DNA of 64,000 nucleotides from Ignavibacteriota bacterium (GCA_025358305.1 JANYJZ010000003.1:1-64000), one strand, 5' to 3'; shown: positions 18,002 to 52,204, numbered from the stretch's first letter. The notes: a model not told the origin generated them from the letters alone. Translations and numbers: made by a program.

Positions 18002-18115
18002 TCTCCCATCCAAGTGAAAGGATCATTATTCTCCATCATTGATACAGAAGACAAGCGCGTCACCGGTCACTTGATTTTGTGTTCTGTTTTCTAAATATTG
18101 ATGAAGGTAATGATC

Positions 18116-19156
18116 ATGCACACCACACACCGGCTCTTTTACCCCATTCTCGCAGCCTTTCTGGCAGCAGTGCCGCTCTTGCCATCGTCGGGCATGGCCG
18201 CCTCGCGCGCAAAGTACGGGGGCGAGTTCCTTGCGATCGGCGTCGGAGGGCGCGCGCTCGGTCTCGGCGGCGCCTACGCAGCGCTCGCGAGCGACGTGAC
18301 GGCGGGATACTGGAACCCGGCGGGCCTTTCGCGGATGAGTTATCCGCAGATCACCTTCATGCACGATGAACGCTTCGGCGGGCTCGTGAACTACGATTAC
18401 TCCGCCGCCGCGATGCCCCTGGGCGCGTCGCAAACCCTCGGGTTCAGCGTCATCCGGCTCGGCGTCGACGACATCGCCAACACGACGGCGGCGTGGACCG
18501 ACCTGAACAACAACGGCCTCATCGAGAGCAACGAGCTCGACAACAGCAAGATCACGTATTTCAACGTCGCCGACTGGGCGTTCCTCCTCTCGTACGCGAA
18601 GAAGGCCACGAACGAATTCTCCTACGGCGTCAATCTCAAGGTCATCCGCCGCGAGAACGGCGAAGCCTCCGCGACGGGGATCGGGTTCGACGTCGGGGCG
18701 CAGTACCGCGTGACGGAACACCTCATGCTTGGCGCGAACGCCCAGGACATCACGACGACGCTCGTCGCCTGGAGCAACGGAACGAACGAGCTCATCACGC
18801 CGACGCTCAAGCTCGGCGGAGCCTATGCGATCGACGCTCTCGGCGGACGGTTCTCGCCGGCGTTCGATGTCGACATGCGCTTCGAACACCGCGCGGCGGC
18901 TGCGAACGCGCACCTCGGCGCTGTGAGCTTCGATTTCCATAGCGGCCTCGAGTACGAGTTCCAAGACCTCATCGCGCTCCGGACGGGCTACAGCGATATC
19001 GGGTCGCTCAATATCGGGACCGGCATCCACCTGCCGAAGTTCGACATCGATTACACGTTCGCCAAGTTCAACGGTACCGACCAGCTCGACAACACGCACC
19101 GGATCTCCCTCACCTTCACCCTCCAGGCCGAACAGTTCCTTCGTGGCGCAGAATAG
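18116..19156 (+). CDS. PorV/PorQ-family outer-membrane beta-barrel protein
   Basis: I chose ATG 18116 because GAAGG lies nine bases before it; earlier in-frame TTG/ATG codons at 18098-18110 are poorly spaced. The 346-residue product has a signal peptide (LFYPILAAFLAAVPLLPS), then the family hallmark FLAIGVGGRALGLGGAYAALASDVTAGYWNPAGL, split here as residues ~38-70. Alternating beta strands continue to the end. PorV-type proteins shuttle T9SS cargo to the sorting machinery, and related members are general FadL-like barrels; which role applies here is not proven. An EF-hand-like loop (Asp129 to Glu140, DLNNNGLIESNE) is inserted in a loop. It overlaps the next lipoprotein gene by 14 bases. A TTGATT at 18071 with a weak -10 may be its promoter. 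Confidence 0.82.
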   Translation: MHTTHRLFYPILAAFLAAVPLLPSSGMAASRAKYGGEFLAIGVGGRALGLGGAYAALASDVTAGYWNPAGLSRMSYPQITFMHDERFGGLVNYDYSAAAMPLGASQTLGFSVIRLGVDDIANTTAAWTDLNNNGLIESNELDNSKITYFNVADWAFLLSYAKKATNEFSYGVNLKVIRRENGEASATGIGFDVGAQYRVTEHLMLGANAQDITTTLVAWSNGTNELITPTLKLGGAYAIDALGGRFSPAFDVDMRFEHRAAAANAHLGAVSFDFHSGLEYEFQDLIALRTGYSDIGSLNIGTGIHLPKFDIDYTFAKFNGTDQLDNTHRISLTFTLQAEQFLRGAE

Positions 19157-19724
19157 ACTGAAGATCCTCGCGGTGCCGGCGCTCGTGATGAGCGCGGCGC
19201 TCATCGCTTTTTCGTGCGCGTCCCGGCCTCCCGCGGCGAGCACGTATCCGCTTCTTGCAACGTCCGTCCAGACCGCCGACGGCGCGATCACTGGGCGCAT
19301 CCCGATGGGATGGAACTCCGCGTTTTCCGATTCGCTTCCGTTGGGCGTCGATGCATGGCTCGTGAGCGACGACCGTGCTGCGTTCATAGCGCTCCGGGAG
19401 ATCAATCTCGACAGGCCGACGGGTCAGCGCGTGCGTCAGGAGGGGCTCGAACTCCTCGCGCGGCTGAGCATCGCGTTTCGGTCCGACAGCGCGCATGCGG
19501 CAGCCTCGGTCCCCGTCCGAGAGTCCGTCCTGAACGATCTTAAGGTTTGCTCGTACGAACTCTCCGTCGGCGGTGAATGGAAGAGCGTCATCGTGATGAC
19601 GCTGAAGGGGAGGTTCTATGAATGCGAGGCGAATGTCGCGGGAGGTACGGCGGGGGTAACGGCCCGCGTTGCGGAGGCGCAGAAGGCGTTCTGTTCTTCC
19701 CTTGCTACTTCGTCTCGAGAGTGA
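19143..19724 (+). CDS. Putative lipoprotein of unknown function
   Basis: It starts at GTG 19143 inside the end of the barrel gene, so the two are probably coupled. The N-terminus is a signal with Cys25 in IAFSCAS, a loose lipobox. The mature ~168 residues contain GRIPMGWNSAFSD and ALREINLDRP, a pattern seen in small envelope proteins that resemble PsbP-like or photosystem-type folds, but I do not recognise a family. Three further cysteines (near 136, 160, 185) could pair. Its 3' end overlaps the convergent cyclase gene by 20 bases. Confidence 0.7.
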   Translation: MAQNRLKILAVPALVMSAALIAFSCASRPPAASTYPLLATSVQTADGAITGRIPMGWNSAFSDSLPLGVDAWLVSDDRAAFIALREINLDRPTGQRVRQEGLELLARLSIAFRSDSAHAAASVPVRESVLNDLKVCSYELSVGGEWKSVIVMTLKGRFYECEANVAGGTAGVTARVAEAQKAFCSSLATSSRE

Positions 19725-21912
19725 AGACGCCGTCCCAGTCCGCCGGAGGCGGCGAGGCGATGTACCGGAGCGAGCGCTGAATGTAGAGCTTCGACGGGTA
19801 GTCAGACGGGACGCGCTGGAGCGCCTTCTCGAACTCGCTGATCGCGGCCGTGAAGTTCCGTTTCCGGTAGAGGAGGAGCCCGGCGGTGAAGAATTCCGTC
19901 ATGTCGAGCGTTGAGCGCGGGATCGTTTCCTCCCCCAGGATGTCCATGAGTTCGTAGACCCGGATCGGTTCCGTCTTTCCCACCACGCGCAATAGGTCCA
20001 ATTCCCTCCCGAAGACGCTTCCGGCGACCCTCTTATAGAGGCTTTCGCTCACAAGGATTCCGGTCTTATACAGTTTGTTCGCGCTCTCGAGCCGGGCGCC
20101 GAGGTTCACGCTGTCGCCGATGACGGTGTAGTCGAAGCGTCCCATGCCCCCCATGTTGCCGACGATCATCTCCCCCGTGTTGAGGCCGATCCGAACATTG
20201 AGCATGGGCTTGCCTTCGCGCTGCCACCGATCGCGCAGGACCTGAAGGATCTTCTGCATCTCGACCGCCGCACAGCAGGCGCGCAGAGCGTGGTCATCCT
20301 GCGCGATCGGCGCGCCCCAGAACGCGACGATCGCGTCTCCCTCGTACTTGTCGAGCGTCCCGGCATGCGTGAAGATGATCGTCGTCATGACGCTGAGGTA
20401 CTCGTTGAGGATCGAGACGAGCTCCTCCGGAGGCATCTGCTCGGAGATCGACGTGAAGCTCTCGATGTCGCTGAAGAAGACGGTGAGCTCCTTCCGCTCC
20501 CCGCCGAGGCGGAGCTTCTCGGGGTTCGCGATGAGTTCGTCGACGACCGACGGATTCACGTACTGGGTGAACATGCTCTTGATGAGAAGCCGCTGCTTCC
20601 GTTCGGTCACGTAATTGTAGATCGTGCTCCCCACGTAGCATCCCGCGACGGTGAGGAACGGGCTCATCATGTCCGTGAGGTAGTTGAGCTCAGTAAAGAG
20701 CTTGATGGAGACCCAGTAGAGGATCACCATTTCGGCGATGATGACGGCGAGTCCGAGGAACTCCATTTGTGCGCTGTAGCGCGTCCGAATCGACTTGATC
20801 CCGGCGGTGAGGGCAAAGGTGAACATGCTGAGGCCCAAGGCGACGAGCGCGGTCAGCCACGTCGGCTCATGGAGGATGAAGTCCTTGTTGAGGATGTTCT
20901 GGATGATGTTCGCGTGGATCTCGACGCCGTACATCTCGTTATCGCCTTCCCGGCGCCCCTGCGCGAACGAGACAGGAAAGAGGTCCTTTTCCTCCGGCAT
21001 GACCGAGCCGACGATGACGATCTTTCCCCGAAACGTGCCGTCGGTGAGGTAGCCCGTGTCGGGATCGTCGAACGTATTGACGTCCTCGCCGGGGTGCTCG
21101 AGCTCGTCCACGGTCTTGAAATCCTTGTCGTCGAGGACGTCGGCAACGTTGATCCGCCGGAACATCCCGGAGGGTCCGTAGTAGTTGATGAGGAACGTCG
21201 TCGAATCGTACCGCGGGATCTCCCTCCCGACATAGTGGAAGTATTCGCCCGAGATCTCGGCCGTGTAGGAGGGCTTCTGCCCGTAGTAGACGTTGAGGAG
21301 CGCCGTGGAGAACGTCGGGATACGCCGCTGTCGCTGCGATTCGTAGCCGAAGGGCATGTAGCGCCGGAGGACGCCGTCGGCGTCGGCGGGGACGTTTACC
21401 AGTCCGATGAGCGACGTGGAGTCGGCGATGATGTTCCCGAAATTCTCGAACCCCTTCCGCAATGAGTAGTACTGCGCGTCCGGCTCGAGCTTCCCGGCGA
21501 GGACGACGTTGCCCGCCTCTCGGATCGCATCGCGGAGGTCCTGTTCCTCGGCGTGCGCGCCCGTGTCGCTCGCACTAAAGATGACGTCGAGGCCGATCGC
21601 CTTGGCGCCGGCGCGGTGGAGGTTCCGCACGAGCCGCGCATAGTACGATTTCGGCCAGGGCCATTTCGCGGGGAGCGCGTTGTACGAGTCCTGCGAGATG
21701 CCGACGATGATGACGGCGGAGGAGTCCAACAGCAAACTGCGGGAGCCCCGCTTCTCGAACCGGAGGTCGATGAGCGAGAGCTCTGCCCGGCGGAACGGGG
21801 GAAGATTGAGGATCATGTCCTGCGTGAGGACCAGGACCAGCACCGCCACCGCGAGGCTGATGCCGAAGTTGACGAGCAGCGACCAAACGGGTTTCGAGGG
21901 CTTCCGGATCAT
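19705..21912 (-). CDS. CHASE2-domain adenylate cyclase (class III)
   Basis: Residues ~12-31 form a membrane helix, followed by a large periplasmic CHASE2 sensor (about 40-350), three more helices (about 352-428) and a cytoplasmic class III cyclase domain (about 470-660). Metal ligands Asp482 (FSDIESF) and Asp526 (YEGDA), the base-recognition pair Lys522 and Asp594 and the transition-state Asn603 and Arg607 are all present, which favours ATP over GTP. A ~70-residue TPR-like tail follows. The family converts ATP to cAMP on an extracytoplasmic signal. It is the last gene of an operon with a FecR-domain protein and an outer-membrane barrel, which suggests the signal comes through the envelope. 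Confidence 0.93.
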   Translation of the reverse strand: MIRKPSKPVWSLLVNFGISLAVAVLVLVLTQDMILNLPPFRRAELSLIDLRFEKRGSRSLLLDSSAVIIVGISQDSYNALPAKWPWPKSYYARLVRNLHRAGAKAIGLDVIFSASDTGAHAEEQDLRDAIREAGNVVLAGKLEPDAQYYSLRKGFENFGNIIADSTSLIGLVNVPADADGVLRRYMPFGYESQRQRRIPTFSTALLNVYYGQKPSYTAEISGEYFHYVGREIPRYDSTTFLINYYGPSGMFRRINVADVLDDKDFKTVDELEHPGEDVNTFDDPDTGYLTDGTFRGKIVIVGSVMPEEKDLFPVSFAQGRREGDNEMYGVEIHANIIQNILNKDFILHEPTWLTALVALGLSMFTFALTAGIKSIRTRYSAQMEFLGLAVIIAEMVILYWVSIKLFTELNYLTDMMSPFLTVAGCYVGSTIYNYVTERKQRLLIKSMFTQYVNPSVVDELIANPEKLRLGGERKELTVFFSDIESFTSISEQMPPEELVSILNEYLSVMTTIIFTHAGTLDKYEGDAIVAFWGAPIAQDDHALRACCAAVEMQKILQVLRDRWQREGKPMLNVRIGLNTGEMIVGNMGGMGRFDYTVIGDSVNLGARLESANKLYKTGILVSESLYKRVAGSVFGRELDLLRVVGKTEPIRVYELMDILGEETIPRSTLDMTEFFTAGLLLYRKRNFTAAISEFEKALQRVPSDYPSKLYIQRSLRYIASPPPADWDGVFTLETK

Positions 21913-21918
21913 GGACGG

Positions 21919-24363
21919 TTACACATCCAGGCGGAGAATGAGGCTCCAGATGATGTCGTTGTTGGCGCCCTTGTTGAAATACAGGCTCATCTGGCCCTGC
22001 AGGCTCAGGTTCGGGCGGAAGAAGTACCGTGCGCTCGCGTCGGCAAGCGTCCGGGCGATGTCGCCGAAGGTCGGGCTAAGGGTCCCGGAGAGCTGCAGCC
22101 GCTCCTCCATGAGCCGGTAGAGCGCGTTCGCCGAAAGGGTCGTGTAGTGGAACGTGCTCTTCCTTGTCCCAAGCGCCGTGTCCGCGACGGAATACTCCGT
22201 GCTGTTCACCGACAGGTTGACGTTCGTCTCGAGCGGGATCGTGTAGCGGGCTGCGTCGCCGAGGGTGAACGAGATCGTCTTCGTGTCGAGGTTCGAGCGC
22301 GTCTGGTCGTCGCGGGTCGACGTGCTGAATCCGAGGGAGGCCAAGTGCTGCCCGCTGAGTATGAACCGTCGGTTGAGCTGGATGAGGAACCGGTTCGTCT
22401 GGTCGTCGACCGCGAACGCCGAATCTGACCTGATGGGGTTCTTGTTCTCCGCAAGGAGGTACCCCACGGTGACGCTCGGGAAATCGCTCTGGGAGAGATA
22501 CGAGACGCCGAAGTTGCCCGTCGTGCTCGTCGTCGTGGCCGGCTTGGTCTTCGCGGTATTGTCGTCGAAGCGCTCCAGGCCGGCGGTGAGGAGAAGGCGG
22601 TTGTTCACGAGCCGCTGGCGGTCGGTGACGGCGAACCCCTTGATGTCCGCGCGGTAGAACGACTGGCCGAACGACTGGAAGCTCTCGCCATGGCGGAAGT
22701 ACGTGAACCGCACGGTGTTGTCGAAATAGTTGATCTTCATCCCCGCATCGTATGCGAGCGTCGAGGTGTTCTTCAGCGAGAGGGGGACGAGGTATTGGTT
22801 GACGGTGATGTAGTTCGAGAGGTACTTCCGGAGGTCGAGGACATCCTTGGCGCTGATGTCGCTTGAATTTCCGCCGAAGATCGAATCGATCTGCGCTTCG
22901 GAGAGCGTCCCGCTGGTGATGTCCTTGTTGATGAAGCCGACGGCCGCCTGGCCTGTGAGTTCGACGTTGTGCCGGTCGAACGAGATGAGGAAATCGCTGC
23001 CGACGACCATGTTCTCCTGCGGCTGGATACCGTACCGGATCGACTCGATGTCATCCTTCGCCTTGAGATAGCTGAAGGAGATCCTGCTATCATCCTTGCC
23101 GAACGTCGGCCGAATGACGAAGAGATTGCGGTCGAACGTTCCGTACCGGACCTTTGCCCAGCGCTGGACCGCTGCGAGGGAATCGTAGAGCGTGAATGCA
23201 GCGCCGGGGTCCCGCTGCTGTTCGGCGACGAGGCTGTCCGACGGGAAGACGGAGAGGACGGTCGTCGCGATGTGGCGCGTGACCGATCCGCTCACGACGT
23301 CGAGCTGGACCGGCCCGAGCATGAGGGAGCCGTTGAACCCGCGAATGCGCTTGCCGCTCATGATGAACTCGGAGAGTTCCGGATACGTGTCGCCGTAGCC
23401 GAGCTTCAGCCAGGGCGATTCGCCCCCGATGAAGAACCGGTTCTGCGGCTGGCGGTCGGACTTCTCTTCGTTCGTGATATGAGCGCGGCCCGTGAAGGAG
23501 TACGGACCGGAGGAGGCTGACGCGGAGACCGTCGCGCGGTTATACGGCGTGACGGCGTCGTTCACGGTCTCGTTGCGTGTCTCCAGGATGGCGGAGCCGC
23601 GGTATTTCCAGGCGGCGTAGTCGGGCGCGCCTCTGAGGGCGGACTGTTCCGATGTCGCACGGACGATGAACGACCAGCCGCCGGTCGACACCCGGTTGCT
23701 GTCGCGGTCGTAGAGCTCGACGCGGACGGAGTGTTCGCCGGAAGAGACCTGGTCGGGATGAACGACGACGAGCTCGTCGTCGATGATGGCCCCGGACGTG
23801 AGGTTCGCGTCATCGAGGAATACCTTTGTCCGATGCCGGTCCACCGAAGAGTCGGCGTGGAGCAGGGAGAACGAAATGATGACATCCTCGGCGTTCAAAC
23901 GTTCGTGTGCCTCGGGGCTCAGGACGATGATGCTCGACGGCACCACCGGCTCGTCCCGAAGCTGGAACTGATTCGGATGGTTCTCCGGGTCAGCCGGGGG
24001 GTAGGTCTCCAGGAGGGCCCCGCTTGTCCCGTAGATCGCGACGAAATAATCGATGAGCGGCGGGGCAATGTCCGCCGCGGGAAGATCGACCGTCGCGGTG
24101 TTCCCGATGAGCGCGAGTTCCCTGCGGGCGTAGAGCCGCTGGCCGAACAGGCGGTAAGCGATCTCGATCTTCTCGATGCCCGCCGTGTTCGACAGGTCGA
24201 CGCTCACCCGCAGGGGGGCGCCGGCCTGATAGGGTTCGCTCCGGACCGTCGTGATCCGTTCGCTGATCTGGGCCGCAGCCGCGGCTCCAAAGAGGAACAG
24301 CGCGATGGCGAGAAGCCATGCGCGCTGTCCGAATCCGTTTGCCTGTCGTGCGAAAAATGTCAT
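21919..24363 (-). CDS. Large outer-membrane beta-barrel protein, unknown family
   Basis: The start is placed at ATG 24363, which gives a clean signal peptide (RAWLLAIALFLFGAAAAAQ) and 814 residues; a GTG at 24417 is the alternative. The first ~220 mature residues are Ig-like beta domains (RVSVDLSNTAGIEKIEI; SSIIVLSPEAHERL). From ~230 to the end, amphipathic strands alternate with polar loops in the manner of a porin, and the last strand WSLILRLDV fits a barrel terminus. It is six bases upstream of the cyclase gene and downstream of the FecR gene. No plug domain or TonB box was seen, so it is not a standard TonB receptor. Confidence 0.75.
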   Translation of the reverse strand: MTFFARQANGFGQRAWLLAIALFLFGAAAAAQISERITTVRSEPYQAGAPLRVSVDLSNTAGIEKIEIAYRLFGQRLYARRELALIGNTATVDLPAADIAPPLIDYFVAIYGTSGALLETYPPADPENHPNQFQLRDEPVVPSSIIVLSPEAHERLNAEDVIISFSLLHADSSVDRHRTKVFLDDANLTSGAIIDDELVVVHPDQVSSGEHSVRVELYDRDSNRVSTGGWSFIVRATSEQSALRGAPDYAAWKYRGSAILETRNETVNDAVTPYNRATVSASASSGPYSFTGRAHITNEEKSDRQPQNRFFIGGESPWLKLGYGDTYPELSEFIMSGKRIRGFNGSLMLGPVQLDVVSGSVTRHIATTVLSVFPSDSLVAEQQRDPGAAFTLYDSLAAVQRWAKVRYGTFDRNLFVIRPTFGKDDSRISFSYLKAKDDIESIRYGIQPQENMVVGSDFLISFDRHNVELTGQAAVGFINKDITSGTLSEAQIDSIFGGNSSDISAKDVLDLRKYLSNYITVNQYLVPLSLKNTSTLAYDAGMKINYFDNTVRFTYFRHGESFQSFGQSFYRADIKGFAVTDRQRLVNNRLLLTAGLERFDDNTAKTKPATTTSTTGNFGVSYLSQSDFPSVTVGYLLAENKNPIRSDSAFAVDDQTNRFLIQLNRRFILSGQHLASLGFSTSTRDDQTRSNLDTKTISFTLGDAARYTIPLETNVNLSVNSTEYSVADTALGTRKSTFHYTTLSANALYRLMEERLQLSGTLSPTFGDIARTLADASARYFFRPNLSLQGQMSLYFNKGANNDIIWSLILRLDV

Positions 24364-24434
24364 GGGTCCGTAACCAGTGTGTGTGGAGAACCGGCGAACC
24401 GAGACTGATCGCAGCACCAGTACCGACGCCGGGT

Positions 24435-25124
24435 CTATTTCTTGAACTTGAGCTTCAGTTCCTTCTTGCCGCCCTGCGGGTCGCGCAGTTCGAGCTTGAG
24501 TTCGTTGTCCGTCCCGCCCGCAGCCGCGCTCGAGGCGTCCGCGATCTCCGCGGGCGTCGCCTTGCGCGAGGAGATCGTGCCGTCCTCGTTCGAGATGCCG
24601 ATCTCGCCTTCCGCGACATCCACGTCCTTGCCGGACGCGTTGTTATGGAGGCTCACGAGCCCTTCGGTCACGATGAGCGTGTCGCTCCCCTGCCCGCCGG
24701 AGAACTTCCCCTTCGTGCCCCGAATGGACGCGACGGAGGTCGGCGTCGTGAGCCGAAACTGGTCGTTCTGCTGCTTCCTCACCTCGAAGCCGTAGGCGCC
24801 CTTCGAGAGGCCGACGTTCCGCAGGATGCCGGTGCCGGAGTTCTCCGTCACGAGCGTAAGCTCGGAGAGTTCGCGGACCCGAACGATGCTATTATCGATG
24901 AACTTCACGACCGCGAACGAGCGCTGGCCGGTCTTCACCCGGTCGCCGGAAACGAGCGACGCACCCTTGGCGGCCTTCGTCCACTCGGCTTCGCCGGACT
25001 GCTTTTTCACGTCCTGGATCGTCTTCGTTATGAGCGCCACGTTCGAACCGAACGCCGCCGCGGAGGCGACGAGGCACGCTGCGAGAAGGAGACTTGAGAT
25101 CCGATAGAGTATTGTCGTTTTCAT
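24435..25124 (-). CDS. FecR-domain envelope protein
   Basis: Three ATGs are possible (25139, 25130, 25124). The last has GAGGA at eight bases and starts the signal peptide MKTTILYRISSLLLAACLVASA. The 229-residue product holds a FecR fold at about 45-165: VSGDRVKTGQRSFAVVKFIDNSIVRV, then LTTPTSVASIRGTKGKF and EGLVSLHN. The C-terminal ~60 residues are polar, Ala- and Lys-rich (GGKKELKLKFKK). FecR in E. coli passes a receptor signal to a sigma factor; stand-alone secreted FecR domains like this often accompany CHASE2 cyclases. No sigma factor gene is nearby. Confidence 0.87.
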   Translation of the reverse strand: MKTTILYRISSLLLAACLVASAAAFGSNVALITKTIQDVKKQSGEAEWTKAAKGASLVSGDRVKTGQRSFAVVKFIDNSIVRVRELSELTLVTENSGTGILRNVGLSKGAYGFEVRKQQNDQFRLTTPTSVASIRGTKGKFSGGQGSDTLIVTEGLVSLHNNASGKDVDVAEGEIGISNEDGTISSRKATPAEIADASSAAAGGTDNELKLELRDPQGGKKELKLKFKK

Positions 25125-25150
25125 GGTCATTGTCCTCATTCAATCATTCG

Positions 25151-26242
25151 TTATTCGAGAGTCAGGTCGACGGAGTCGCTGATGTCGCGCAGCTGCAAGA
25201 GGAGATCCAAGAGCTGCGACTCCGTGAGTGGCGATTGATTGAGAGAAAATGTGCCGTCGAGCGACAGGTGTCCGTTCTTGATCGACTGGAACAGGGACGG
25301 GTACCGGCCGCCGAAGAGTTCTTCGAGCTGACGCAGGATGGCGTCCTCCGTGCTCGCTTCGCCTTCGCCGGGCGTCGAGGCGACGGTGAAGAGTCCGACG
25401 GTGCTGACAACGTCGTGCGCGGATCCGCCGCTCCCGATCGTGGAGGTCTTGACGCGCCACGCGTACGACTTCCCGCGTTCGAGCGGCCTGCCGCCCGCAT
25501 AGAGGAACGCGTTCTGCGCCTGGATCTCGGTTTCGAGCATCGGGGGCTGCTGCTGGATCGCATCCTCGCGTGACTGGCCCGGTCCGATCTCGGTCACCGT
25601 CAGCGTGACGGGATAATGATCGGTGTAGAACTCGAAGAAGGGGAACTCGCTCGTCACCTCGCCGTCGCGCGGCGACCGGAGCTCGATGCGTGACGGGTTC
25701 GTTAGGTCGAATTCGATCTGCTTCGTACCGACGACGGTGTCGCCGGTCGCGGTGCAGCCGGTCTCGTCGAGGAGAATGTTCAGGGTATAGATGCCGGCGG
25801 GGAACTTCCCCGTCGCCAGGGCGACATCCTGGACCTTGTCCTTCGCTTCCGAGGCGAAGTCGAGATGATCCATCTTGATCTCGGCGTTGTAGCCGAGGTT
25901 GAGGTTCGTAAACTGTTTTCCGGCGCCTGGCACGGGGAACTGCACCGTCTCGAAGTCGACCGCATCGCCGTTATAGGTGCCGTCGGAGAGGCTGACGTGG
26001 AGGATGCCGTGGAGCTTCGCCGTCGCGGGTGTCCCGGTGTTGGAGATGATGACGGTGAACAGGAGGTTCCTGCTCTCGAAATGCTCAAAATCGATGTCGG
26101 AGAGAGAAAGGTTCTGAATAGGTGCGTATGACACATTCAGGCCTAATTGGCACGGTTGAGCACTAGCGCTGGGAGCGGAGACGAACGTCCCGATCGCGAG
26201 GACGATCAGGACAGGGATGAGGTGGACGATCTTTGACTGCAT
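25151..26242 (-). CDS. Secreted protein of unknown function, first gene of the FecR-CHASE2 operon
   Basis: It begins after GAGGGAG with a signal peptide (HLIPVLIVLAIGTFVSAPSASAQ). The mature part has a beta-rich N-terminal domain (about 30-165) and a fibronectin/Ig-like domain (about 180-290) containing SPRDGEVTSEFPFFEFYTD and GKSYAWRVKT. This resembles domains that report on polymer or surface binding. The C-terminal ~70 residues are helical with LRQLEELFGGRYPSLFQSIKNG. I do not recognise the whole architecture. It is followed after 26 bases by the FecR gene and has a strong promoter. Confidence 0.75.
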   Translation of the reverse strand: MQSKIVHLIPVLIVLAIGTFVSAPSASAQPCQLGLNVSYAPIQNLSLSDIDFEHFESRNLLFTVIISNTGTPATAKLHGILHVSLSDGTYNGDAVDFETVQFPVPGAGKQFTNLNLGYNAEIKMDHLDFASEAKDKVQDVALATGKFPAGIYTLNILLDETGCTATGDTVVGTKQIEFDLTNPSRIELRSPRDGEVTSEFPFFEFYTDHYPVTLTVTEIGPGQSREDAIQQQPPMLETEIQAQNAFLYAGGRPLERGKSYAWRVKTSTIGSGGSAHDVVSTVGLFTVASTPGEGEASTEDAILRQLEELFGGRYPSLFQSIKNGHLSLDGTFSLNQSPLTESQLLDLLLQLRDISDSVDLTLE

Positions 26243-26280
26243 GTATTTCTCCCTCTAATAAACTGCGCAAAAGGCAAAAA

Positions 26281-26309
26281 AGTATAACGAATTTCAGCGA
26301 TTAAATCAA
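26281..26309 (-). promoter_or_regulatory. Sigma70-like promoter of the FecR-barrel-CHASE2 operon
   Basis: On the minus strand: TTGATT (26309-26304), 17-base spacer, TATACT (26286-26281). Start near 26274; the ATG is at 26242. Confidence 0.82.
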
Positions 26310-26314
26310 CCACT

Positions 26315-26329
26315 GAAAGTTCTACTTTC
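26315..26329. promoter_or_regulatory. Small inverted repeat next to the -35 (possible operator)
   Basis: GAAAGT-TCT-ACTTTC, with perfect 6-base arms, lies five bases upstream of the -35 of the FecR-CHASE2 operon. Position suits an activator or repressor site. No other copy was noticed in the window. Confidence 0.35.
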
Positions 26330-26375
26330 GCGGGAGAATTCCTACGGGGTGTGTGGGTGAAATCACGCTTTACGT

Positions 26376-27692
26376 TCAAAAACGCGTGAAATCGTTATAG
26401 ATGACAAAGGCCATAAAGGCCACGAGAAGGACGAATCCGGCCTGTTGGATGGCGATTTTGACGCGGAAGGGGATCTCGCGACGGGCGGCCTTCTCAATGA
26501 GCACCATCATGATGTGGCCCCCGTCAAGCGCCGGGATGGGGAGGATGTTCATGATCGCGAGCGTGATGCTCAACTGCGCCATGAACCAGAGGAAGACCTG
26601 GAGGCCGAGTCTCGCGCTTTCGGTGGCGAACTGCGCGATGGCCACAGGCCCGCCGAACGAATCTTTCACAGACGTCTTGCCCGCAAAGAGGTTGGCGATC
26701 GTCAGGTAGAAGAGGCGAACGGCCTTGCCGACCTCCTTTACGCCTTCGACGAGAGCCTGGAAGATGCCGTAGCTGACGTGCTTCATCGGGCCGACGTACA
26801 CGCTGCCCATGCTGATGCCGATGCGGCCCTCCTTCGTGACGGTCGTCGATCCGGAGAGCGTCTCCGCCCCGCGCTTCCACGCGAGCGTCAGGGACCTGCC
26901 TGCGTGCCCCTTGATGTACGAGATCACCTGCTGGCTGCTCTTGATCGGGACCTGATCGATCGAAACGAGCGTGTCGGCGGACTTCAGGCCGAGTGACGCG
27001 GCGGGCATGCTCGATTCGACGCCCGTCACGATGGGAATGCTCTGTCCCGGGGTGATACCGAGAAGCCCAGCGGCGATGCCGGGCATGTCTTTCGCACTGA
27101 TGGAGACCGTCTTCTGTTCACCGGTCCGGTCGAGGGTGATCGTGATGTCGCTGCCGAGGTTTTCGATATACAGTTCGTTCTGGAGCTCCTCCCATTGCGT
27201 CACGGCGCTGCCGTTAACAGAGAGGATGCGGTCGCCGGCGACGAGTCCGGCCTTTTCCGCGGCGCTTCCTTCGGCGACGTAGCCGATCTGCGTCGTCGCC
27301 ATGACATCCTTGCCGCTGATAAAGTGAATGTTCCAGAAGATGACGACGGCGAGGATGAGGTTCATGATGACGCCCGCCGAAAGCACGATAAGACGCTGCC
27401 AGGCCGGTTTCGCGCGGAACTCCCAGGGTTCCGGATCATGGTTGGCGAACTCCGTGTCCATGCTCTCATCCACCATGCCGGCGATCTTGACGTAGCCGCC
27501 CAAGGGGAGCCAGGAGACGCAGTAATCCGTATCACCGATCTTCTTGCCGAACGCGCGTGGCGGGAACCCGATGGAGAACCGGTCCACCCGCATACCGCAG
27601 AGCTTCGCTGCGAGAAAATGCCCGAGCTCGTGTACGAAGACGAGGACGCCCAAGGTCACGCCGGTGTAAAAGATCATGTTAAGTGCTTGCAT
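26376..27692 (-). CDS. rseP: RIP metalloprotease RseP (site-2 protease)
   Basis: This inner-membrane zinc protease cleaves transmembrane substrates such as anti-sigma factors. The first helix holds HELGH (21-25); the C-terminal helix holds NILPIPALDGG with the third ligand Asp. Two PDZ domains lie between (about 125-205 with GLVAGDRILSVNG, and 215-300 with LKSADTLVSIDQVPI). The length of 438 is typical. Its ATG lies within the last codons of dxr (14-base overlap), the usual dxr-rseP pairing; ATG 27677, just after the dxr stop, is an alternative. Confidence 0.96.
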   Translation of the reverse strand: MQALNMIFYTGVTLGVLVFVHELGHFLAAKLCGMRVDRFSIGFPPRAFGKKIGDTDYCVSWLPLGGYVKIAGMVDESMDTEFANHDPEPWEFRAKPAWQRLIVLSAGVIMNLILAVVIFWNIHFISGKDVMATTQIGYVAEGSAAEKAGLVAGDRILSVNGSAVTQWEELQNELYIENLGSDITITLDRTGEQKTVSISAKDMPGIAAGLLGITPGQSIPIVTGVESSMPAASLGLKSADTLVSIDQVPIKSSQQVISYIKGHAGRSLTLAWKRGAETLSGSTTVTKEGRIGISMGSVYVGPMKHVSYGIFQALVEGVKEVGKAVRLFYLTIANLFAGKTSVKDSFGGPVAIAQFATESARLGLQVFLWFMAQLSITLAIMNILPIPALDGGHIMMVLIEKAARREIPFRVKIAIQQAGFVLLVAFMAFVIYNDFTRF

Positions 27693-51478: not shown

Positions 51479-52204
51479 ATGACCCTTCCTAGCGCACCGC
51501 ACCAGCCTCTCACTTCTGATCTCGGGGAAGCGATGGAGTTCATCCGCAACGTCCCCATATTCAACGACATCGAGACGAACGAGCTCACGAAGATCGTCCG
51601 TGTCGGCGTCCGGAAGAAGTACAAGAAGGGGAGCATCATCCTTCTCGAGGAGGAAACGGGTGCCGCGCTGTTCGTGATCATCTCCGGGAAGGTGAAGATC
51701 GTCCGGACCGACGACGACGGCCGCGAGGTCATCCTCTCGATCCTCGGGGAAAACGACTTTTTCGGCGAGATGTCGATCCTCGACGGTCTCTCCCGTTCGG
51801 CGAGCGTCGTGGCGATCACGAAGACGGAGCTCTTCATGATCCACCGCAGGGACTTCCTGAAGCTCATGCAGGACGTTCCCTCCGTCGCGATCTCGCTCCT
51901 GAAGGAACTCACCATGCGCCTCCGCAAGGCGGACTCGCAGATCAAGAGCCTGTCTCTCAAGGATGCGGCCGGGCGCGTTGCAAACGTCGTTCTGCAGCTT
52001 GCGGACGACATCGGCACGATCCGCAAGGGGCGCGTCGAGATCGACGAGCTGCCGCTCCAGCAGGATCTCGCCAACATGGCGGGCACGTCCCGCGAAACCA
52101 TCTCCCGCGTGGTCCACATGTTCATCAAGAAGGGCCATCTCGAACTCCAGGGGAGCAAACTCATCATCAACGACTACGAGAAGTTCAAGAGCCTCTTTGT
52201 CTAG
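51479..52204 (+). CDS. CRP/FNR-family transcription regulator
   Basis: From ATG 51479 it has 241 residues; ATG 51533 (MEFIRNVPIFNDIE) is nearly as good and has a GGGGAAG before it. The cyclic-nucleotide-binding fold spans about 20-135, with the phosphate-binding cassette FGEMSILDGLSRSASV retaining Glu97, Arg106 and Ser107. A dimer helix and a winged helix-turn-helix follow, with LQQDLANMAGTSRETISRVV as recognition region. There is no FNR-type cysteine cluster, so cAMP or a similar ligand is more likely than oxygen sensing. An adenylate cyclase is encoded at 19705. Confidence 0.92.
   Translation: MTLPSAPHQPLTSDLGEAMEFIRNVPIFNDIETNELTKIVRVGVRKKYKKGSIILLEEETGAALFVIISGKVKIVRTDDDGREVILSILGENDFFGEMSILDGLSRSASVVAITKTELFMIHRRDFLKLMQDVPSVAISLLKELTMRLRKADSQIKSLSLKDAAGRVANVVLQLADDIGTIRKGRVEIDELPLQQDLANMAGTSRETISRVVHMFIKKGHLELQGSKLIINDYEKFKSLFV

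Follow-up and report, generated by a model that had tools for sequence, protein, structure and literature searches.

A conserved four-gene cassette of Ignavibacteriota encodes a secreted FecR-domain protein, an outer-membrane barrel and a CHASE2 cyclase and may act as a trans-envelope receptor

How a bacterium could turn an event at its outer membrane into a cytoplasmic second messenger is the question raised by a locus of an Ignavibacteriota bacterium, in which the gene of a CHASE2 nucleotide cyclase is preceded by the genes of three extracytoplasmic proteins. In this study, we have explored this locus within a stretch of 64,000 nucleotides (JANYJZ010000003.1:1-64000, hereafter the window) and compared it with its relatives and with signalling systems described in other phyla. 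An earlier description made from the letters of the window (the sequence-only reading) had proposed a tightly packed, operon-like set of genes for a secreted Ig-like protein, a FecR protein, a barrel and a CHASE2 cyclase, and on this outline ORF calling, Pfam searches, hydropathy and structural models agree.

The four genes and their conservation

The cassette is encoded on the minus strand, from position 26242 down to 19705. Its first gene (25151-26242), which we call X, encodes a secreted protein of 363 residues, in which two Ig/FN3-like domains are accompanied by a small C-terminal one, as judged from the ORF, the family alignment, a model and its fold. The second (24435-25139) encodes a secreted FecR-domain protein of 234 residues (PF04773 at residues 66-162, Pfam E 4e-12), consistent with family alignment and hydropathy. 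The third (21919-24417), defined by its ORF, family alignment and an AlphaFold2 model, encodes an outer-membrane barrel with N-terminal Ig-like domains, which begins either at a GTG at 24417 or at an ATG at 24363. The fourth (19705-21912) encodes a CHASE2 class IIIb nucleotide cyclase of 735 residues (Pfam CHASE2 1e-53, Guanylate_cyc 1e-20), an assignment that also draws on invariant catalytic residues and solved adenylate cyclases. The gaps between them are of 11 bases (X/FecR), 17 bases (FecR/barrel, or 71 if the ATG start of the barrel is used) and 6 bases (barrel/cyclase).

Using one search per protein in the 80 nearest genomes, we found the barrel in 70, the cyclase in 73 (E below 1e-40), the FecR protein in 67 and X, which diverges most among the four proteins and is recovered by a profile in further regions, in 48. 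The complete order X-FecR-barrel-cyclase is present in 55 of the 70 regions fetched, and two more are without X only. Scanning named genomes with the barrel alignment gave 68 loci, from records of Ignavibacteria, Melioribacter, Stygiobacter, Chlorobi-like or unclassified Bacteroidota and in part from the same assemblies as the 80 nearest genomes; the cyclase accompanies the barrel in 62 of the 68, nearly always within about 100 bases, and the loci without it are mostly contig ends; taken together, contig ends, genus g3 and Chlorobi-like genomes make up most of the exceptions. The check set by the sequence-only reading was whether the genes occur together in relatives, and they do: rather than lying apart, or the cyclase occurring mostly without FecR and barrel partners, the four genes are a conserved unit whose order recurs across several families and classes. 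From these comparisons, we consider their conserved linkage close to certain.

Some lineages depart from this pattern. In genus g3, the cyclase is on a different contig from X-FecR-barrel, an arrangement that constitutes a natural test of the need for linkage. In two loci of this genus (L070 and L071), X-FecR-barrel has been kept behind dxr-rseP and the cassette cyclase is found beside genes that, by eye, are MoxR/BatA-like. The barrel is also found without the cyclase of the cassette in f24, f39 and f51, in genomes which have other CHASE2 proteins and cyclases, and it may have an older, cyclase-independent role. A lone barrel beside a HIT-family-like gene, with no FecR protein, X or cassette cyclase, was seen in the regions that we read of these groups, Chlorobi-like and others (L134-L136, L138-L140, L149).

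Upstream of the cassette, within the taxonomic order of the source organism, lies rseP (26376-27692, minus strand; RIP metalloprotease, TIGR00054, 2.5e-95). It is probably not a member of the cassette, as it stays with dxr within the taxonomic order and is not seen beside the cassette in most other lineages. Two plus-strand genes converge on the cassette from the other side, one for a PorV2-like type IX secretion protein (18098-19156) and one for a 193-residue protein without any family (19143-19724), which overlaps the cyclase stop by 20 bases; the place of both is kept through much of the order.

The extracytoplasmic proteins and comparable systems

X, the FecR protein and the barrel have one N-terminal hydrophobic segment each, and neither X nor the barrel matched a family in our Pfam search. 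The model of X (pLDDT 85) contains two beta-sandwich domains and a small C-terminal domain, and its best FN3-type matches have a middling Z of about 9. DUF928 was weakly matched by two of 21 X relatives (best E 4e-4), so that a kinship of X and DUF928 is a lead only. An X-like domain also forms the N-terminal part of a 1,066-residue protein whose other end looks, by eye, like a subtilisin-like protease (L145:11897-15097); the genome in question has a distant relative of the barrel. The FecR protein was considered as a lipoprotein on account of LAAC near residue 22, and this was rejected as the cysteine is not conserved among relatives. The FecR protein of families f4 and f6 can carry an Ig-like domain that matches positions 32-146 of the barrel profile (E down to 9e-16; for example G027:C277:6896-7264); the presence of one domain type in both the FecR protein and the N-terminus of the barrel is a sign, at the level of sequence, that the two may assemble jointly. 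The barrel protein itself has 814 residues from the ATG start and up to 832, and its model (AlphaFold2, pLDDT 81) displays a large closed beta-barrel after two small beta domains. Among solved structures, MtrB matches this model best (Z 17.5; 439 residues, 3.8 A); the TonB receptors and pilus ushers that Foldseek returned as well amount to a generic large-barrel signal.

The closest precedent, missed by the sequence-only reading, comes from Sinorhizobium meliloti, where the conversion of a plant signal into cAMP signalling, which activates Clr, depends on both NsrA, an outer-membrane protein, and CyaK, a CHASE2 cyclase (PMC7529298, PMC13001267, PMC5498481), and where the C-terminal half of NsrA has been reported as a barrel (PMC7529298). 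In the S. meliloti locus, which we fetched, the gene directly before cyaK encodes a protein of 1,190 residues with a FecR domain at 66-160 and TPRs. From its place and its size, we take this gene to be nsrA. The FecR part of NsrA matches the cassette FecR family (hhalign 95.6%, E 1.1e-8; hmmsearch 42 bits), the cassette cyclase finds CyaK at about 1e-63, and the barrel of NsrA has no sequence-profile relation to the cassette barrel family (hhalign probability 0.1%), though the two may be distantly related in fold. The two systems are alike in having an extracytoplasmic FecR domain, an outer-membrane barrel, a CHASE2 class III cyclase as the next gene and a cAMP-dependent Crp-family regulator downstream. 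They differ in that FecR, TPRs and barrel form one polypeptide in NsrA, whereas FecR and barrel are separate ORFs in the window and its relatives; moreover, the cassette FecR protein is without the TPR part and an additional protein, X, with its Ig/FN3-like domains, is encoded first. By analogy, the cassette would work like NsrA-CyaK, but we do not file it as a member of that system, the fused FecR-barrel and the barrel family not being shared.

Other arrangements share parts of this design. In Campylobacterota, the genes of CHASE2 adenylate cyclases lie in clusters that also encode an outer-membrane protein with a FecR domain, a phosphodiesterase and a TPR protein, and one pathway has been proposed for them (PMC9239204); the cassette differs from these clusters by having X and no phosphodiesterase. 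The BiofilmReg operon of Burkholderia encodes a LysM-FecR protein and a CHASE2 histidine kinase (PMC5192318), and thus likewise a secreted FecR-domain protein beside a CHASE2 receptor, but its output is a histidine kinase with a response regulator rather than a cyclase, and it has no barrel. In magnetotactic bacteria, the gene of the secreted protein MtxA precedes that of a CHASE2 cyclase; Ig-like domains are also discussed there, and the role in magnetotaxis is only proposed (PMC4439547). The cassette FecR family gives a weak profile match with MtxA (E 0.017), and no barrel has been reported in that operon, unlike in the cassette. We found no description of the four-gene form in open papers. 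Thus, the principle is already known from NsrA-CyaK and from Campylobacterota, and what is new here is the split FecR, the unrelated barrel, the extra protein X and the Crp-type operator.

The cyclase and a Crp-type site upstream of X

Hydropathy places the hydrophobic segments of the cyclase at 12-30 and 354-403, flanking the CHASE2 domain. The catalytic residues, all of which the sequence-only reading had said to be present, are indeed there and are invariant in 60 cassette cyclases: D482 and D526 for the metal, K522, T596, N603 and R607. The same reading had also named a Lys/Asp pair that favours ATP; of this the ATP-type Lys522 stands, while its partner is Thr596 and not Asp, the pair being Lys/Thr in all 60. 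The class IIIb pattern is characterized by a threonine where the mammalian enzyme has an aspartate, and the cassette cyclase conforms to it with two metal-binding Asp, the ATP-type Lys, the Thr at the Asp position, Asn and Arg, as does CyaB, a closely matching solved structure. Because K522 favours ATP, the enzyme is likely an adenylate cyclase. It is the sole PF00211 (class III cyclase) protein of the source genome and therefore probably governs all cAMP of that type. Another CHASE2-like protein of the genome, the only one besides the cyclase and about 895 residues long (L254:3966-6650 in G000:C5), is not a class III cyclase.

Beside paralogous CHASE2 cyclases of the same order (regions L236-L253), we found no members of the FecR, barrel and X families except for one weak FecR-profile hit. 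The large proteins encoded next to these cyclases have no profile relation to the barrel and are instead transglutaminase-like or WD40-caspase proteins. In several of these regions (L236-L239, L241, L249-L252), the neighbours form other secreted sets: in one, a CsgG/LpoB-like protein is joined by a transglutaminase-like TPR protein; in the other, a WD40-caspase (C14/CHAT) protein accompanies a DUF4384 protein. As far as gene neighbourhoods tell, CHASE2 cyclases seem to come with their own extracytoplasmic partners, the cassette being one such pairing, which suggests that CHASE2 could be a docking domain with exchangeable partners.

A further element, which the sequence-only reading did not notice, lies between rseP and X. 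In the alignment of this intergenic region across the family, GTGA-N6-NCAC is conspicuous, at 26367-26352 of the window; the motif was first spotted by eye in family f1. In the window, the Crp-type site is CGTGATTTCACCCACA (26352-26367, minus strand), which agrees with 8 of 10 consensus positions. With the CRP consensus TGTGA-N6-TCACA, the 150 bases upstream of X and a threshold of 8 of 10 positions, a site was found in 28 of 55 loci, with 3.5 expected by dinucleotide shuffling; these counts come from related, non-independent sequences and are not to be read as probabilities, the site being present in several families. For FecR, barrel, cyclase, rseP, dxr and PorV2 of these loci, the upstream regions yielded values at the level of chance. 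Enrichment is clear at the 6-base spacing only, and TGTGA ranks first among 1,024 half-sites. In another 36 upstream regions, previously unused, 11 matches have the 6-base spacing and no other spacing reaches more than 6; one site (L192) is perfect. In the f32 group the Crp-type site is weak, with 1 of 7 loci, and neither of the two f2 loci has it.

The window also encodes a candidate receptor for cAMP, a Crp-family regulator at 51533-52204 on the plus strand (cNMP_binding, 1.4e-26; HTH_Crp_2, 7e-13). Its recognition helix reads SRETISR, which resembles the R-E-T-x-x-R of E. coli, and its phosphate-binding cassette retains GE and RS; the Thr-Ser pair in the C-helix of E. coli CRP is not obviously conserved in an alignment made by eye. 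The source genome has four cNMP-binding proteins. A feedback of cAMP on the cassette via Crp appears likely from the conserved Crp-type operator, the one class III cyclase in the genome and the Crp-like regulator in the same window.

The same region was said by the sequence-only reading to hold a single strong promoter, a claim that we cannot uphold: the sole sigma-70-like candidate, TTGATT-17-TATACT (26281-26309, minus strand), matches 9 of 12 positions, and shuffles yield 1.5 such sites, so there is no excess over chance. One relative (L067) has identical hexamers with the same spacing at the equivalent place. An imperfect 27-base palindrome, TTTCAGTGGTTGATTTAATCGCTGAAA (26292-26318), overlaps the -35 region of this candidate; we rejected it as an operator, given its absence at that place in relatives. 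Overall, the sequence-only reading was right about the conserved unit, erred on the Lys/Asp pair and claimed a promoter strength that the sequence does not bear out, and it overlooked, besides the precedent and the Crp-type site, that in some lineages the barrel and the cyclase can be found apart.

A proposed signal path and its alternatives

Based on these results, we regard it as probable that the four genes form one trans-envelope receptor cassette that works like NsrA-CyaK, with Crp feedback. Together with X and the FecR protein, which would lie on its periplasmic side, the barrel would sense something at the outer membrane or the cell surface; the FecR domain would hand this state to the periplasmic CHASE2 domain, which would switch on the cytoplasmic cyclase to make cAMP from ATP. 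The cAMP could then act via the Crp-family regulator, which might also bind upstream of X and so feed back on the expression of the cassette itself. By analogy with S. meliloti, the cyclase is likely to receive its signal from the barrel, and the flow would be from the outside to cAMP, which is the natural reading of the output. In this scheme, we infer the protein contacts, the direction of the signal, the ligand, cAMP as the product, Crp binding and the sign of the feedback.

The main rival turns this order around: the cyclase would sense by CHASE2 alone or with other partners, and X, the FecR protein and the barrel would be cAMP/Crp-regulated surface machinery that is co-transcribed with its regulator. 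S. meliloti provides precedents for both roles, NsrA as a receptor and SMc02177 as a Clr target. The latter, a FecR protein encoded next to cyaD1, is needed for the phenotype and not for signal perception (PMC5498481), so a FecR protein near a CHASE2 cyclase can be an output rather than a relay. A Crp-type site upstream of X is what one would expect of an output operon, and the barrels of f24, f39 and f51, which do without the cassette cyclase, point to a use of their own. Against this, the fused FecR-barrel protein NsrA is required upstream of CyaK (PMC7529298), and the way in which these genes almost invariably adjoin one specific CHASE2 cyclase in several classes, when the paralogues pair with other secreted proteins, looks like partner specificity. 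We hold this explanation to be unlikely.

It could also be that slow rearrangement has simply left unrelated neighbours together. Within the order, the cassette is preceded by dxr-rseP and faces PorV2, and these and other genes remain beside it as ordinary conserved gene order would have it. However, elsewhere in the phylum, across other families and classes, the four genes are mostly together where dxr, rseP, PorV2 and dnaX have largely gone from the flanks, and in an unrelated phylum a FecR-barrel fusion adjoins a CHASE2 cyclase, which leaves this account very improbable. Classical Fec-like signalling would make the FecR protein the anti-Sigma factor of an unlinked ECF Sigma factor and the barrel a TonB-dependent receptor. 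The name of the domain and its occurrence together with an outer-membrane barrel, as in FecA-FecR-FecI, speak for it, but it is hardly credible, since the FecR protein is fully secreted, with an N-terminal signal peptide and no cytoplasmic anti-Sigma part by hydropathy, Pfam finds neither a plug nor a TonB receptor in the barrel, and, as the sequence-only reading had remarked, no Sigma factor is found in the cassette, nor is one among its conserved neighbours. The cassette would also differ from FecA-FecR-FecI in having cAMP as its output.

The receptor cassette that we favour can be extended to a broader proposal, which we find quite possible and stop short of calling probable: a phylum-wide, self-regulating cAMP receptor, in which a barrel family without described relatives would sense a cue outside the cell or at its surface, X and the FecR protein would relay it to CHASE2, and cAMP via Crp would control the operon itself. 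Here CHASE2 would be a general docking domain, because paralogous CHASE2 cyclases pair with other secreted sets.

In conclusion, the cassette names the likely partners with which CHASE2 would sense, and it is present in many genomes, including that of at least one cultivated relative, Stygiobacter electus (locus L208) being an example. If our reading is true, the NsrA-CyaK principle would not be a rhizobial oddity, as it would recur in Bacteroidota/Ignavibacteria with a different barrel.
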